This document shows, piece by piece, positions 5,193 through 47,082 of a stretch of DNA of 64,000 nt; the first letter of the stretch is position 1; each line of letters opens with the position of its first letter. Source of the stretch: Bacteroidota bacterium (GTDB taxonomy: Bacteria; Bacteroidota; Bacteroidia; B-17B0; Aurantibacillaceae); contig CAUJCR010000031.1 in NCBI GenBank assembly GCA_963169355.1, positions 62,001 through 126,000 of the forward strand, in the 5' to 3' direction. The position numbers were made by a program, and so were the translations under genes. The notes below the pieces were generated by a model that saw only the letters and a list, made by a program, of their open reading frames with translations, searched no databases and was not told the origin of the DNA.

Positions 5193-5816
5193 TTAATCTT
5201 TTGTTTCGTTGCCAAATTCAAATTTTGGGAGTGCTAATTTATATTTTACAGCACTTACCCTCACTATTATAATGATACTTATACTCATTATCTCTGCTAT
5301 ATTATTATCTAGTTCAAAATATTGTAAGAATACGTAAACAATTGCCCCAATAATACACGCAGTAGCATATATTTCTTTTGCAAAAATTAATGGAATTTCA
5401 TTTAATAGCGTATCTCTTATCACACCGCCAAATACGGCACTTACCAAGCCTAAAATAACAGCTGCATAAGGGTTTACGCCCATCTCTAAACTTTTTTCTA
5501 CACCTACAATCGTATAAATAGCAACTCCAATGGTATCAAATAAAAAAAGAGTACGATATAATTTTACGATGTAGTTTTTGAAAAAGAGAGTAAAAATAAA
5601 AGCTACAAAAATTGTGATAAGAATATTACCGTCGTTTAACCACGAGATAGGATAAGCTCCTAACATCATATCGCGCAAGGTTCCACCTCCAATAGCCGTT
5701 AAAAATCCTGTAAAAAAAACACCAAAATAATCGTGGTAATGTTTCTTATCTCTAGCAGCTACAGCCCCCGAAATGGTAAAAAAGAATATACCAATAAGAT
5801 TTAACCAGTAAGACAT
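5193..5816 (-). CDS. Trimeric intracellular cation channel (TRIC/UPF0126) family membrane protein
   Basis: This is a 207-aa inner-membrane protein with about seven hydrophobic segments. The two family hallmark repeats are visible as GGGTLRDMMLG (residues ~43-53) and FGGVIRDTLL (residues ~128-137), matching an internal duplication of a three-helix unit. Bacterial relatives (YicG/YadS type) are proposed potassium-conducting trimeric channels; that role is known for the family and not shown here. It is 34 bp downstream of the symporter gene and 3 bp upstream of rimM, in the same direction. Confidence 0.88.
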   Translation of the reverse strand: MSYWLNLIGIFFFTISGAVAARDKKHYHDYFGVFFTGFLTAIGGGTLRDMMLGAYPISWLNDGNILITIFVAFIFTLFFKNYIVKLYRTLFLFDTIGVAIYTIVGVEKSLEMGVNPYAAVILGLVSAVFGGVIRDTLLNEIPLIFAKEIYATACIIGAIVYVFLQYFELDNNIAEIMSISIIIIVRVSAVKYKLALPKFEFGNETKD

Positions 5817-40507: not shown

Positions 40508-41914
40508 TTAAAATATTTTGCTAGGATTTAAAATTAAGTTTGGGTCAAACACTTTTTTAACATTTCTCATCAATTCTAATTGATATTCTGGGAAAATAAT
40601 GGGCATATAGTTTTTTTGAACTAATCCTATGCCGTGTTCACCACTTATGGTGCCGCCCAACTGTTTACACAGAGTAAATATTTCGGTAATACCTTTTGGT
40701 AATTCGCGCTCCCAAACATCGTTGGGTAAATCGCCTTTTATGATATTTACATGTAAATTACCATCACCAGCATGGCCATAACACACACTTTTAAAACCAT
40801 ATTTTGCACCAATGGCTTTAACACCTTTTAGAAGTGTTGGTAATTCAGCTCTTGGAACCACGGTATCCTCTTCTTTATACACCGAGTTACTTTTAACCGC
40901 TTCGCCCACTTTTCGTCTAATTTTCCATAAAGATGATTTTTGTTCGGCAGTATCCGCCATTAGTATTTCATCGCACCCGTGTTGAGTCATGATGTCGCTA
41001 ATGGTTTCACAATCTTGATACAGTAAATCTAAATTATTACCATCTACTTCTACCAATAATAAGGCTTGCCATTCGGGTTTAATAGAAAAATTTACTTCTC
41101 CAGCATATTTGATACTCCAATCGATAGCATCTCTTTCCATAAATTCCATAGCACTAGGGGTAACACCTGCCCTAAATGTGGCCCCCACAGCTTCGCAGGC
41201 TTTTTCGGCCGATGTAAATGGAATTAACATTAGCACATCATGTTTTGGTAAAGGAATAAGTTTAAAAACTATTTTGGTTACAATACCAAGCGTTCCTTCG
41301 CTTCCTATCATAAGATGTGTAAAATTATAACCTGTAGAGTATTTGAGGGTATTAGCCCCTGTCCAAATAATTTCGCCATTAGGCAATACCACTTCTAAGT
41401 TTAAAACATAATCTCTGGTTGTTCCATATTTAACGGCTTTAGGTCCACCACTACTGTGTGCAATATTTCCTCCCAATGAACAACTTCCCCAACTGGCGGG
41501 GTCTGGCGGATAAAATAAACCTTCTTTCTTTACCTCCTCTTGAAATACATAATTAATAACACCTGGCTCAACGGTTGCTTGTAGATTGCGTGTATCGATT
41601 TGTAAAATACGGTTAAAGCGTTCCATGCTTATCACAATGCCACCATATATTGGTAATGCGCCACCACTTAAACCAGTACCTGCACCACGGGCTGTTACAG
41701 GAATGTGATGTAGATTTGCTAATTTCATAATTTCAGAAATTTGCGCTACGCTTTGTGCTTTCACCACTACTTCGGGTTTAAAAATAAAATCCTCGGTATG
41801 GTCTTGCCCGTAAGACTTTAAAATTTCTTCGTCAATAAATACATTTTGTTCGCCAACAATTTGTTGTAGTAATTGTATGTGTTGAGGTGTAATGATTTGA
41901 TAAGGTGAATTCAT
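40508..41914 (-). CDS. FAD-binding oxidase, GlcD/D-lactate dehydrogenase type
   Basis: This 468-aa flavoprotein oxidises a 2-hydroxy acid such as glycolate or D-lactate. The N-terminal FAD domain (PCMH type) is marked by PVTARGAGTGLSGGALP (residues ~75-91), DPASWGSCSLGGNIAHSSGG and YGTTRDYVLNLEVVLPNGE. The C-terminal FAD-oxidase domain includes CYGHAGDGNLHVNI with its metal/substrate histidines and GTISGEHGIGLVQKNYM. The true substrate is unknown. No GlcE/GlcF or cysteine-rich CCG subunit lies nearby. It overlaps the stop of the upstream membrane-protein gene by 4 bp, indicating coupling. Confidence 0.92.
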   Translation of the reverse strand: MNSPYQIITPQHIQLLQQIVGEQNVFIDEEILKSYGQDHTEDFIFKPEVVVKAQSVAQISEIMKLANLHHIPVTARGAGTGLSGGALPIYGGIVISMERFNRILQIDTRNLQATVEPGVINYVFQEEVKKEGLFYPPDPASWGSCSLGGNIAHSSGGPKAVKYGTTRDYVLNLEVVLPNGEIIWTGANTLKYSTGYNFTHLMIGSEGTLGIVTKIVFKLIPLPKHDVLMLIPFTSAEKACEAVGATFRAGVTPSAMEFMERDAIDWSIKYAGEVNFSIKPEWQALLLVEVDGNNLDLLYQDCETISDIMTQHGCDEILMADTAEQKSSLWKIRRKVGEAVKSNSVYKEEDTVVPRAELPTLLKGVKAIGAKYGFKSVCYGHAGDGNLHVNIIKGDLPNDVWERELPKGITEIFTLCKQLGGTISGEHGIGLVQKNYMPIIFPEYQLELMRNVKKVFDPNLILNPSKIF

Positions 41915-42432
41915 TTTAATTTTTGGCTAAAATATTGTACGATGGTTTCGGCTTCTTCTTTTTGTTGTGTACCAATTAAAAATTGCTTGCCATTTTTATA
42001 AGTTATTTTAATACCATGTTCACCAGCTACATTATAACACCAGCCCTTACCTGAAATACTATATCGTACTCCCCAGCCACCATAATCACTTATAGGAGAA
42101 TATTTAATAAGCTGAATAGATTGTATTTCTTCCCATGTAATATTGCGTTTACAAAAAGGAATAAAATGAAACTTGGTCTCAATGCCATTAGAGTTAATAG
42201 TTGTACTCAGTTTTAAAACAACAAACCAAATACTAAATAATAATGTTGAACCTAATGTTACAATCATTATCCAACGGAGTGTTTCGGGATTTTGATTTGG
42301 TTTTTGTTGGATGATGCCGCTCCATTCAGAATAAAAAATTAAAGCAATAAGTATAAATGGAAAAAAGGCTAATAGGTAATGCCACCATTTATTAAATCTT
42401 TGAACTTCTTCAAATGTAGGGGCTAAATCCAT
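41911..42432 (-). CDS. Small membrane protein of unknown function, Fic-type promoter
   Basis: This 173-aa protein has two transmembrane helices (residues ~18-38 and ~52-76) followed by a cytoplasmic beta-rich, PH-like domain (GIETKFHFIPFCKRNITWEEIQSIQLIKY...). I do not recognise a named family. The architecture resembles bacterial PH-domain (DUF304-like) membrane proteins, which is inference only. It is translationally coupled to the GlcD-like oxidase (4-bp overlap). Its promoter region (42436-42486) is almost the same as that of the fic gene, suggesting common control. Confidence 0.7.
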   Translation of the reverse strand: MDLAPTFEEVQRFNKWWHYLLAFFPFILIALIFYSEWSGIIQQKPNQNPETLRWIMIVTLGSTLLFSIWFVVLKLSTTINSNGIETKFHFIPFCKRNITWEEIQSIQLIKYSPISDYGGWGVRYSISGKGWCYNVAGEHGIKITYKNGKQFLIGTQQKEEAETIVQYFSQKLK

Positions 42433-42435
42433 ATT

Positions 42436-42486
42436 ACGATAATGTCAAGTGATAGTATCAAAGGTAAGGAAAAATTGCGGAAGATT
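42436..42486 (-). repeat. Promoter/operator repeat, copy 1
   Basis: This 51-bp block matches 43621-43671 with 5 mismatches; its last 31 bp (42456-42486) are identical to the other copy. It contains a minus-strand -7 box TACCTTTG (42459-42466) and two tandem TGATAnTATCA-like sites between -7 box and ATG. Confidence 0.85.
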
Positions 42487-42660
42487 TTGAAATAATATTA
42501 ATGTCAGATTGGTTTATACACAAGATTGATAGTTGTTATGACTACTTTTACTTTCCAATTCAAAGAATATCAATATACTGTATTTACGAGCTTTCAAACC
42601 CTTTGTAATTACAAGTTGCTTTTTTGACGGAAACTAAATGCAAAAATTGGAAAACATCGC

Positions 42661-43617
42661 TTACTTAAATTTGTATTCAGTTAATCGTTGTTCTCCAAAT
42701 TTAACTAATATTTTTTGTTCAACTGCCCATTTTAAATCTCTACTAGCTGTGGGTGCCGATATGGATTTAAAATTTAACAAATAGTCTTTTCTACTAAACG
42801 TATTTTTACCAATTTTTTCTTTGTATAGCTGTATTCTATCCTCAGGGTGTAATGTTTTGTTTTGAGATTGTAAAACCTCATCTAATGCGTTGGAAATTAT
42901 TCCTAACATAAATTCTATAAATGGTGTTGAATTCCCTTTTTTATCCGATTCGGATAACTTGGCGTAATACTGTTTTTGCTGTTGTTTTATTAAATGTTCG
43001 ATAGGTAGAAATTCAAAAACAGGGTATTGTTTCATTAAAAGTAATGTTTGCCAAAGTCTTCCCATACGTCCATTGCCATCAATAAACGGGTGTATAAATT
43101 CAAACTCGTAATGAAAAACACAACTTTTTATGAGCATTAAATCTTTATTTGTTTTTAAGTAGCTAAATAAATCATTCATTAAACCTTTAACCATTGCTCC
43201 ATTTGGAGCCATGTGCTCAATTTTTGAACCTTTAACAATGCCCACATTTTTAGTTCTTAATTTACCAGCACTATCAATTAATCCGTTCATTAAAATGGCG
43301 TGTGCTTTTTCTAAGTCTTTTAATTGTATGGGATTAAATAGGTGTAATTGTTCATACACCTTAATAGCGTTTTGTACTTCTAGAATATCTTTTTTAGGCG
43401 CTATTACTCGCTTGTTATCTAAAAAAGCTGTTATTTGTTCTTCGGTAAGTGTATTGCCCTCAATCTCTAAAGATGATTGAATGGTTTTTATTCTGTTTTT
43501 TTTACGTATTTCAGTTGTTGGTTTATATAAGTGTGTAGCATTAATAGCTCCTATTTTTTCGGAAATAGTAGCTATTAATTGTAAAATATTGTAGGTAATG
43601 GTATAAGGAGGTGTCAT
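42661..43617 (-). CDS. Fic-family AMP transferase, class II, with C-terminal winged-helix
   Basis: Fic proteins transfer AMP or another nucleotide part to a hydroxyl on target proteins. At 318 aa this has the complete core motif HPFIDGNGRMGR (His176, residues 176-187). An N-terminal inhibitory motif fits [S/T]xxxE[G/N] as SLEIEG (residues 49-54), placing it in class II, in which the inhibitory helix precedes the core. The last ~70 residues (ISAPTASRDLKWAVEQKILV) look like a winged helix, common in Fic proteins linked to gene control. No separate antitoxin gene is seen. Its promoter (43621-43671) is duplicated before 42432, so autoregulation plus control of that gene is plausible. Targets are unknown. 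Confidence 0.9.
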   Translation of the reverse strand: MTPPYTITYNILQLIATISEKIGAINATHLYKPTTEIRKKNRIKTIQSSLEIEGNTLTEEQITAFLDNKRVIAPKKDILEVQNAIKVYEQLHLFNPIQLKDLEKAHAILMNGLIDSAGKLRTKNVGIVKGSKIEHMAPNGAMVKGLMNDLFSYLKTNKDLMLIKSCVFHYEFEFIHPFIDGNGRMGRLWQTLLLMKQYPVFEFLPIEHLIKQQQKQYYAKLSESDKKGNSTPFIEFMLGIISNALDEVLQSQNKTLHPEDRIQLYKEKIGKNTFSRKDYLLNFKSISAPTASRDLKWAVEQKILVKFGEQRLTEYKFK

Positions 43618-43620
43618 TTC

Positions 43621-43671
43621 ACGATAGTATCATTTGATATTATCAAAGGTAAGGAAAAATTGCGGAAGATT
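43621..43671 (-). repeat. Promoter/operator repeat, copy 2 (fic promoter)
   Basis: This is the partner of 42436-42486. On the minus strand it reads -7 box TACCTTTG (43644-43651), then tandem TGATAATATCA and TGATACTATC sites 2 bp apart, then the fic ATG at 43617. The sites cover the expected transcription start, as a repressor site would. Confidence 0.85.
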
Positions 43672-43736
43672 AGCATCACACAATTGTTTAAGTCAGGAAA
43701 TAGTTTGTATATTGAGTTGATTATATTTACCTCAGA

Positions 43737-44297
43737 TTACAAATACTCTGTTTCGTTTGTTCTTAAATTCATTACCCAAGTACGTTCACTTTCAAAATCT
43801 TTACTATCCGAATGGTAAAACTCATTATACACCCAATAAATATTTGAATAATTGCTAAGACCAATATTTAATTTTTCTAAATAAGATAATGTGATTTGAT
43901 AGTTTAATCGCTCTTGTTTCATTCCATTCAGAAATAAGCATATTATAATTTGTTTATTGTGCTCGTTCGCTAACCTTTTTAATTTTTCTCCAAAATTTTT
44001 AAGCCTATTTGGCACTACGCTAAAGATTATAATATTGGAGTTTGGGTCTTTTTTTATATCATTTATTAATTTTTGCTTACTAAATTTATTGTAATGATTG
44101 ACTTTAATTTTACTAAAGTTGGCGTGGAAAAAAGCAGAGTTTTTTTGTAAATGCTTAATAAAATTAGCTGTAGAGTAGGGGCTTTGAATATTATAAAGTG
44201 AGCAAATGTCGAGTTTAAACAAACAACATCTAAGAGCTTCCCTATTTGGACTGCCTATTATTAGAGTTACATGCTTTGTATTTACGATGTTAATCAT
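43737..44297 (-). CDS. Unrecognised protein, third gene of an accessory cassette
   Basis: I do not recognise this 186-aa protein. It looks like an alpha/beta fold: a first strand-turn HVTLIIGSPNREALRC could be a nucleotide-binding-like loop, and NIIIFSVVPNRLKNFGEKLKRLA and KQIIICLFLNGMK alternate strand and helix. There is no signal peptide or membrane helix, so it should be cytoplasmic. Its start overlaps the preceding gene by 8 bp (44290-44297), showing tight coupling. The C-terminus is charged (SDSKDFESERTW). Confidence 0.65.
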   Translation of the reverse strand: MINIVNTKHVTLIIGSPNREALRCCLFKLDICSLYNIQSPYSTANFIKHLQKNSAFFHANFSKIKVNHYNKFSKQKLINDIKKDPNSNIIIFSVVPNRLKNFGEKLKRLANEHNKQIIICLFLNGMKQERLNYQITLSYLEKLNIGLSNYSNIYWVYNEFYHSDSKDFESERTWVMNLRTNETEYL

Positions 44298-45036
44298 TTA
44301 TATTTTTTAGGTAATCGACTATATCTTTAGTATTTTCAAATATCTCTGTTGGATTATTAAAAGGAAATCCATTATAATTTTGCGGGCTTAAAATTTCTCC
44401 ATTTTCAATGTCAGTAGAATAACGTGGTTCATTTTTAAAATCGCCTTTACCTCTAAAATTCATAATGATTGCTTGTACTCCACTTAAAACACAAATTTGC
44501 AATGCACTTTCTTCACATTCATAAAAATCATTCTTATTTAAGCGCATTTTTACGTTTTTATTTTTCAGCATACATTCCGGGCAGAAACCATTCCATATTT
44601 GGTTTATTTTAACTGGTTCAATTTCTTTTCGCTGAATGTCATCTATATAATAATGTATTCTACTATTTTCCATTTGTTCATTCATAACATTATATGCAAA
44701 ATTACCCATACCCATAAATGTATCTCCTAAAATCCAATTATTTCTGCTGTTTATAGCACTAGCATTTAAACAATCAAAAATATATACTAAAGTATCTTTT
44801 AATTTTTTCTGAACAATCAATTTATACATTTCATCCACTTTTACATAGTAGTATGTATGCCACAAAGGATTTTCATTAATTAAGTCTTCAATAAAATCTA
44901 GAAAAGAATTATAAGTGCTTTTTAATTTACCTCCTGACTCTACTATAATTGTTCCATCATCCTTCTTATATACAGTAACATTAAAGCCGTACATTCCTTT
45001 ATACCTGCTATGTCCAAATTCAGCTATTTTATTCAT
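44290..45036 (-). CDS. Unrecognised protein with possible zinc finger, second gene of the cassette
   Basis: This 248-aa cytoplasmic protein belongs to no family I can name. The middle has a CPEC pair (residues ~149-152) followed ~25 residues later by C and further on QICVLSG, a pattern that could bind zinc. The N-terminal half (GFNVTVYKKDDGTIIVESGGK) is beta-rich, with an aromatic stretch NPLWHTYYYVKVDEMYK. It overlaps the next gene by 8 bp and lies 11 bp after 45048-45650, so the three form one transcription unit. Confidence 0.65.
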   Translation of the reverse strand: MNKIAEFGHSRYKGMYGFNVTVYKKDDGTIIVESGGKLKSTYNSFLDFIEDLINENPLWHTYYYVKVDEMYKLIVQKKLKDTLVYIFDCLNASAINSRNNWILGDTFMGMGNFAYNVMNEQMENSRIHYYIDDIQRKEIEPVKINQIWNGFCPECMLKNKNVKMRLNKNDFYECEESALQICVLSGVQAIIMNFRGKGDFKNEPRYSTDIENGEILSPQNYNGFPFNNPTEIFENTKDIVDYLKNIND

Positions 45037-45047
45037 GTTCTAATTAT

Positions 45048-45650
45048 TTATTGATATTTATTTCTAATTTCTTCAAAATTATTTGAAATGCCAATTTTTT
45101 TCCACAAACCTTCTACCCAATCTTTATCTGTTAATTTATAATAGGAATAATGATAATGATATACAAATTGATTGTTTTGAAATTTAGATTTTATAAGATT
45201 TGAAATAATCTGCCCTAAATAACTTTTTTCTACCCCAAAGATTAAAAAAATGGTTTTATCATTAACTCCAATATCCATCATTTCTTCACAAAAAGTATCA
45301 ATGTGTTTGTTGATGATTGATAAATTGGCACCAATATTATCAATTAATATTTTAGAATCTTTTTGATTTATATTTTTAAATAAATCGGTAAGGTATGCTC
45401 CTTTAAAATGGCTTTCATTAAGAGCATAAGCGAGTTTTCGATCGTGTTTTCCACCATGAAAATTTTGCCAATTATATGATAATTCTCCTGAAATATTTAA
45501 ACCAATACCTACTAGTCTTGAATTTAAAATATCTTTATTGGCTTCAATAAATGAAACGTCTGACAGGTTCGTATTATTCCATACCGCCCAGCTAGATGTT
45601 TTAGCATATTTTTCTGTAATACTATTAAAGTTAGATTGTATGATGCTCAT
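45048..45650 (-). CDS. Unrecognised protein, weakly uracil-DNA-glycosylase-like, first gene of the cassette
   Basis: This 200-aa cytoplasmic protein shows the order of elements seen in uracil-DNA-glycosylase superfamily folds: LVGIGLNISGELSYNWQNFHGG early, AYLTDLFKNI in the middle, TIFLIFGVEKSYLGQII late, then a basic/aromatic strand with several His and Tyr. The similarity is by eye only and no catalytic residue is confirmed. It follows mnmE by 28 bp in the same direction and may be transcribed from the mnmE promoter or from a weak box just upstream. Nucleic-acid or nucleotide processing is a guess. Confidence 0.6.
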   Translation of the reverse strand: MSIIQSNFNSITEKYAKTSSWAVWNNTNLSDVSFIEANKDILNSRLVGIGLNISGELSYNWQNFHGGKHDRKLAYALNESHFKGAYLTDLFKNINQKDSKILIDNIGANLSIINKHIDTFCEEMMDIGVNDKTIFLIFGVEKSYLGQIISNLIKSKFQNNQFVYHYHYSYYKLTDKDWVEGLWKKIGISNNFEEIRNKYQ

Positions 45651-45678
45651 GTTTTTAAAGTTATTTGACTAATTATTT

Positions 45679-47082
45679 CTATTTCCCTATGCAGAATTTT
45701 CCAAAGATGTTTCCTAAAAGGTCCTCTGAGCTTACATTTCCTGTAATCTCCGATAGTGCTTCTAAGGCATAACGAATATCAAGCGCTAAAAAATCACTTT
45801 GTATGTTTTGCTCTAATCCTTCAATTACTTTTTGTAATGCTTGTTGTGCTTTTATTAATGAATCAACGTGTCTAGAGTTTGTAACTACTGTTTCGGTTGC
45901 TTGAATAGTTGAGGTGTTAAACAGTTGTGTTAAATTGTTTTTTAACGTATCAATGTGTTGGTTTTGCTTAGCAGAAATGTATATCAAATTATCTATTTCC
46001 GAAAATTTATGCAACAATTCATCTTTTGCTAAGGCATCTATTTTATTACCAACTATTAATAAATGGGCTTTACCAAGATGCTCTTTTATTTGATTGATTT
46101 CTTGTTGCAATGTGCGCTTGTCAATGGAGGATACATCAAATAAATAAATAACAATGGCCGATTTTTTAATAACCTCAAACGCTTTATTAACGCCTATTAG
46201 TTCTATTACATCAGTTGTGTTTCTAATTCCAGCCGTATCAATAAAACGAAATAAAATGCCATTTATAATGAGTTGATCTTCAATGGTGTCGCGTGTAGTT
46301 CCAGGAATTTCGCTAACAATGGCACGTTCATCTTCTAGCAACATGTTTAGCAAAGTTGATTTCCCCGCATTGGGTTTTCCAACTATGGCTACTGGAACAC
46401 CGTTTTTTATCACATTGCCTATTTCAAAACTTTGTATGAGTTTACGAATAGATTGTAAGATAGTTTGTACTAAATGATTTAATTCTTTTCTATTAGCAAA
46501 CTCTACATCTTCTTCACTAAAATCTAATTCTAGTTCAATTAATGATGCAAAGTTGAGTAAGTTTTCGCGTAATAAAGCTATTTGATGACTAAAACCACCA
46601 CGCATCTGCTGCATGGCTACTTGATGTGAGGCAGCGGAATGACTTGCAATTAAATCGGCCACAGCTTCGGCTTGGCTTAAATCAAATTTTCCATTTAAAA
46701 ATGCCCTGAGTGTAAACTCGCCTGCTTGTGCTGGGCGTGCACCTTGCGCATAAAGTAATTGTAAAATTTGTTGTTGTATATACGTTGAACCATGACACGA
46801 TATTTCTATCACATCTTCGCCTGTGTATGTATTGGGTGCCTTAAAAATAGTAACTAATACCTCATCAATAATTTGGTTGTTTTGATTAACTATAACACCA
46901 AAATGAGCGGTGTGGCTATTTTTTAATTGTAGCAATTTTGGTTTTAAATGCTTAGTTCTAAAAACAGTTTCGGTAATTGAAAATGCTTTGCTACCGCTTA
47001 ATCGTATAACCGCAATGGCACCACTACCATGAGGCGTTGCTAGGGCGGCAATAGTGTCGTTATTTAATAAATAGCTACTCAT
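45679..47082 (-). CDS. mnmE: tRNA uridine-5-carboxymethylaminomethyl GTPase MnmE
   Basis: MnmE works with MnmG to modify U34 of certain tRNAs. At 467 aa it is full length. The N-terminal folate-binding domain holds IAALATPHGSGAIAVIRLSG, and the helical domain has AEAVADLIASHSA. The inserted GTPase domain shows G1 VGKPNAGKST (~235), G2/G3 GTTRDT and DTAGIR, and G4 NKID. The C-terminal catalytic Cys motif FCIGK ends the protein (residues 463-467). It is a housekeeping gene; the accessory cassette sits directly downstream of it. Confidence 0.97.
   Translation of the reverse strand: MSSYLLNNDTIAALATPHGSGAIAVIRLSGSKAFSITETVFRTKHLKPKLLQLKNSHTAHFGVIVNQNNQIIDEVLVTIFKAPNTYTGEDVIEISCHGSTYIQQQILQLLYAQGARPAQAGEFTLRAFLNGKFDLSQAEAVADLIASHSAASHQVAMQQMRGGFSHQIALLRENLLNFASLIELELDFSEEDVEFANRKELNHLVQTILQSIRKLIQSFEIGNVIKNGVPVAIVGKPNAGKSTLLNMLLEDERAIVSEIPGTTRDTIEDQLIINGILFRFIDTAGIRNTTDVIELIGVNKAFEVIKKSAIVIYLFDVSSIDKRTLQQEINQIKEHLGKAHLLIVGNKIDALAKDELLHKFSEIDNLIYISAKQNQHIDTLKNNLTQLFNTSTIQATETVVTNSRHVDSLIKAQQALQKVIEGLEQNIQSDFLALDIRYALEALSEITGNVSSEDLLGNIFGKFCIGK

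Follow-up and report, generated by a model that had tools for sequence, protein, structure and literature searches.

A conserved palindromic site at the start of one clade of class II fic genes is a likely autorepression operator

To our knowledge, the ways in which class II Fic proteins are kept quiet are largely unknown. This class makes up 80% of Fic proteins (PMC9755527). Autorepression has been established by footprint, gel shift and reporter for CccR (YPK_0951) of Yersinia pseudotuberculosis (PMC9755527). CccR belongs to class II, like the Fic protein described here, and its C-terminal helix-turn-helix binds palindromes at its own promoter; a C-terminal winged helix and promoter palindromes are present in our locus as well, and CccR thus provides a precedent where an earlier sequence-only reading of our locus had found no known system with this arrangement. 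The CccR half-site ATGATAATCT resembles the ATGATAnTATC of our locus (PMC9755527). However, the half-sites are spaced by 26 bp in CccR and by 2 bp here, where the pair is compact (22 bp) and joined directly to a -7 box of the Bacteroidota type. Given this difference in geometry, we suggest that our site works like that of CccR, but we do not file the two as one site type. CccR is also a secreted protein (PMC9755527).

Three further systems are related. The anti-phage Fic proteins SoFic and EcSofic (PMC12249575) share the class II motif with our protein, to which the PADLOC SoFic profile aligns over nearly its full length, and the predicted structure of our protein has a two-domain fold like that of SO_4266. 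EcSofic is accompanied by a downstream antitoxin, AS1 (PMC12249575), whereas we found no recurrent neighbour gene around fic in 43 loci of the family studied here. CbFic2 of Coxiella burnetii (PDB 8cil), likewise a class II protein with a C-terminal winged helix, is a structural neighbour of our model; its winged helix binds DNA, as tested with random DNA only, and no specific operator is known for it (PMC10628234). The closest solved relative is Dde_2494 of Desulfovibrio (PDB 4rgl; 40% identity structurally, E 5e-73 by sequence), although its sequence match to our protein ends at residue 282, before the recognition helix.

The window analysed here is the whole stretch of 64,000 nucleotides taken from contig CAUJCR010000031.1 of a Bacteroidota bacterium, and its features are listed in Table 1. 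The catalytic and inhibitory motifs mark the predicted fic product as a class II Fic protein and putative AMP-transferase. The Fic motif HxFx(D/E)GNGRxxR occurs as HPFIDGNGRMGR at residues 176-187, where the key residues do not vary among 60 sequences. The inhibitory motif of class II, (S/T)xxxE(G/N), lies N-terminally as SLEIEG (residues 49-54; E53 and G54 invariant in 60 sequences). Whereas the PADLOC SoFic profile matches, the NCBIfam SoFic equivalog profile scores 65 bits, below its cut-off of 550. The AlphaFold model (mean pLDDT 88.6) has C-terminal helices at residues 258-269, 276-282 and 288-300 and strands at 304-307 and 314-317, and the nearest PDB folds are Fic proteins, including SoFic and CbFic2 with their C-terminal DNA-binding domains. 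Within the recognition helix, A291-L295 are invariant in 60 sequences.

Two blocks of the window, 42436-42486 and 43621-43671, both read on the minus strand, are identical at 46 of 51 positions. The repeat is real, as the sequence-only reading had described it, and no exact direct repeat in the window is longer than its unbroken 31-bp core. A chance origin is ruled out by 30 first-order Markov simulations, which reach at most 20 bp, and by 100 dinucleotide shuffles, in which TACCTTTGATAnTATCAnnTGATAnTATC, comprising the -7 box and both palindromes, has 0 occurrences. In the window this sequence occurs only twice, with 0 and 1 mismatch, and the palindrome pair has no other place in the 3.2-Mb genome when up to one mismatch is allowed. 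The two tandem palindromes and the shared -7 box had been noted before, with both palindromes placed between the box and the start codon. The elements themselves are there, but the first palindrome overlaps the box, its first G being the last base of TACCTTTG, and the second is imperfect in the membrane-protein copy (TGACATTATC).

Table 1. Positions of the fic gene, its putative operator and the neighbouring features within the window (G018, sister genome).
Feature	Position	Strand	Remark
fic, class II Fic protein, 318 aa	42661..43617	-	Pfam Fic 6.4e-21; PADLOC SoFic 1.5e-47
C-terminal winged helix of Fic, residues 258-318	42664..42846	-	AlphaFold model
Recognition helix with PTASRDL, residues 288-300	42718-42756	-	AlphaFold model
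Putative fic operator, GATAATATCAAATGATACTATC	43623..43644	-	Perfect match to GATAnTATCAnnTGATAnTATC, 5 bp before start codon
-7 promoter box TACCTTTG of fic	43644..43651	-	One base in common with operator
31-bp core, fic copy	43641..43671	-	Upstream half probably a copy of the membrane-protein promoter
Operator-like site of membrane-protein gene, GATACTATCACTTGACATTATC	42438..42459	-	One mismatch, 5 bp before start codon
-7 promoter box TACCTTTG of membrane-protein gene	42459..42466	-	Homologous box in G018
31-bp core, membrane-protein copy	42456..42486	-	Upstream half is the native promoter (G018 alignment)
Membrane-protein gene, 173 aa	41911..42432	-	No Pfam family at 1e-3
GlcD-like FAD oxidase	40508..41914	-	FAD-oxidase_C 4.7e-60; 4-bp overlap with membrane-protein gene
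Insert absent from G018, fic and three genes of unknown family	~42510..45679	.	G018 alignment

The site is conserved at the fic genes of relatives, in whose genomes the sequence-only reading had proposed to search for the tandem. The close fic orthologs among the first relatives searched (57-75% identical) all carry GATAnTATCAnnTGATAnTATC at the start codon. This pattern has 18 fixed positions, and we counted it as present when no more than two were changed. Among 32 fic orthologs whose loci were found by protein alone, 27 have it within this limit and close to the start, and in one further ortholog (L219) a perfect site lies some 200 bp upstream. In a set of 77 loci, mostly fetched by pattern so that only positions outside the pattern are informative, nearly all have 0-15 bp between the end of the site and the start codon, and TAnnTTTG, the -7 consensus of Bacteroidota (PMC7366714), precedes or overlaps the site in most. 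From these comparisons we predict that GATAnTATCAnnTGATAnTATC serves one clade of Fic genes as a conserved operator. A literature search found no paper reporting this site.

Presence of the site follows the C-terminal helix of the protein. The site accompanies 32 of the 35 Fic genes (loci retrieved through the protein only, with the same limit of two changed positions) that encode a recognition helix with A[TS]A[ST]RDL or PTASRDL, nearly always no more than 15 bp from the start codon and in overlap with the -7 box TAnnTTTG; the three exceptions (two paralogs in G233, and L016) have a degenerate site with 4 mismatches. By comparison, the site is missing from all 12 Fic genes that combine a related core with a different C-terminal helix (0/12 vs 32/35, Fisher p = 9e-9). 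This association is not independently replicated, because in the tree of Fic cores the genes with the motif all fall on one side. Seven additional relatives whose helices differ (from Fusobacterium, Proteobacteria and one phage record) lack the site as well, which brings the count to 0 of 19 Fic genes with another C-terminal helix. Several genes of this group lie inside type I restriction operons with little promoter room, and the absence of the site there may only reflect the absence of a promoter. The site is present at a broken fic on a Bergeyella plasmid.

We found at least 120 exact matches to the site in the genome collection. Among the 120 matches listed, 88 are at Fic genes, 13 at Fic remnants, one at a contig edge, and 18 are without a Fic trace; the matches include a few records named Gammaproteobacteria, Verrucomicrobiales, Calditrichia and Saganbacteria. 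In a class sample of 395 genomes, the site was present in 35 and a reversed control in none. Nearly all genomes of this sample with the site have one copy, and G352, which has two, carries the second beside a fic remnant. The distribution of fic itself across genomes is patchy. Given that the operator moves with fic across phyla and that fic has no conserved neighbour, Fic itself is likely to be the repressor, and it is the simplest candidate for the protein that binds the site; a conserved partner regulator was dropped from consideration on the same lack of a recurrent neighbour in the 43 loci.

Alternatively, a host factor or the product of a gene elsewhere may bind the operator, with Fic merely its target. 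The 18 listed sites without adjoining Fic could point to such a factor, as could the genomes with lone sites, 24 of 25 of which, when tested, gave no Fic match at E 1e-25, the one match being 34% identical with another C-terminal helix. However, movement of the site with fic between phyla, the lack of a recurrent neighbour and the restriction of the site to Fic genes with one recognition helix all argue against a separate regulator, which we consider improbable. The simplest reading of the lone sites is that fic genes once stood beside them and have been lost, since copies of fic next to the site range from intact through truncated to nearly erased; Fic remnants at every stage of decay would thus account for them. 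Control of these sites by Fic as a regulon was rejected on the same search of the 25 genomes. Near the solo sites, a search for a winged helix separate from any Fic domain gave nothing convincing. Carriage of the site by phages was also rejected, as just two viral contigs match, both without adjoining Fic.

The membrane-protein gene beside fic has orthologs in 11 of 19 other genus members at E 1e-45, and the oxidase that it overlaps scores 429.5 bits with TIGR00387 glcD, under the curated cut-off of 567.9. In the sister genome G018, trmE lies next to the membrane-protein gene, with no insert and no fic there. G018 aligns to 42138-42509 and 45680-47067 only, and the approximately 3.1 kb between them are missing. 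Its membrane-protein promoter, TTACCTTTGATTCAATCACTTGAAACATTTG, is homologous to block 42436-42486 and has 6 mismatches to the operator. Because G018 has this homologous promoter without the insert, the best reading of the fic promoter is that its upstream half was copied from the membrane-protein promoter and joined to the operator that belongs to fic. Two near-identical blocks on either side of a patchily distributed gene could also be taken for a recombination or target-site duplication flanking a mobile fic cassette, with the palindromes as recombinase sites. We rejected this as extremely improbable, since at other fic loci there is almost always just one site, which lies at the start codon, and the shared upstream half is a native promoter present also in G018.

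The sequence-only reading had further placed the membrane protein and the GlcD-like oxidase in a Fic regulon. As a conserved arrangement this does not hold: the operator was not found at the membrane-protein gene orthologs of any other genome, and the sister species has the locus without fic. A real two-target regulon, in which Fic represses both fic and the membrane-protein/glcD-like operon as a maintained function of this lineage, would fit the single mismatch of the membrane-protein site and its equal spacing to the start codon. It would also fit the agreement with the operator, in the window, of 5 of the 6 positions at which G018 departs from it, and the occurrence of the same TGACA variant in the native fic operator of L248. 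Nevertheless, we regard such a regulon as unlikely, given the absence of the site from the orthologs and its occurrence once per genome in nearly all of the class sample. The comparison of two genomes is compatible both with a gain of the near-consensus membrane-protein site here and with its decay in G018. Cross-repression of the membrane protein and oxidase is plausible as an incidental effect rather than a conserved regulon, because the site has one mismatch only and its variant also occurs in the native operator of L248.

Overall, we consider it probable that fic represses itself through an operator that travels with it. The 22-bp palindromic pair would be the autoregulatory operator of fic, bound by a Fic dimer via its C-terminal winged helices, and the bound protein would keep RNA polymerase from the -7 box and the start of transcription, holding production of a potentially toxic AMP-transferase down to a low level. 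The gene and its operator travel between genomes as a unit. Here this unit has inserted between trmE and the membrane-protein/glcD-like pair, where it probably picked up a copy of the promoter of the membrane-protein gene, so that two promoters of almost the same sequence are now present. That of the membrane-protein gene, with its near-consensus site, is perhaps repressed by Fic as a side effect. That the DNA-binding tail of Fic binds the palindromic switch and keeps fic off is very likely, given the conservation of the site at fic in relatives, its absence where the recognition helix differs, and the precedent of CccR; the prediction of the sequence-only reading that Fic controls its own gene is thus strongly supported. 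We infer toxicity and phage defence from the SoFic family (PMC12249575) and CccR, and the enzyme is probably toxic, with which tight autorepression and the frequent fic remnants beside the site would agree. DNA-bound Fic might in addition act as a sensor, with operator occupancy setting enzyme activity and loss of contact, for example through competing foreign DNA, raising both expression and AMP transfer. This is conceivable because the activity of CbFic2 depends on DNA binding, and we think it very unlikely. With a conserved operator linked to a single recognition helix, autorepression becomes open to direct test in a family widespread among Bacteroidota, and the window illustrates how a mobile gene with its own operator may draw a neighbouring promoter towards its control.

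Several further observations were made in the course of the comparison. The insert contains three genes of unknown family (186, 248 and 200 aa; 43737-45650), which came with or near fic into the gap between trmE and the membrane-protein gene; the 248-aa gene (44290-45036) has no match in 59 related genomes. G018 has a different fic of its own (L015), 57% identical and with the operator, elsewhere in its genome. Perfect operators without adjoining fic or remnant are those of L081, L094, L101, L104, L107, L108, L116, L117, L123, L145, L147, L154, L156, L157, L158, L162, L164 and L171, and L147 and L171 have the same small gene as neighbour. L110 has two perfect operators (5328-5349 and 5466-5487), one at fic and a second 138 bp upstream of it; the second adjoins a terminator-like hairpin and precedes no evident gene. 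Three overlapping palindrome copies, not two, are present at the fic start in L066 (6494-6528) and L169 (3471-3505). Finally, a sister Fic group with another C-terminal helix (L274, L275, L276 and L277) is encoded directly after hsdS of type I restriction systems on plasmids, followed by hsdR in two records.
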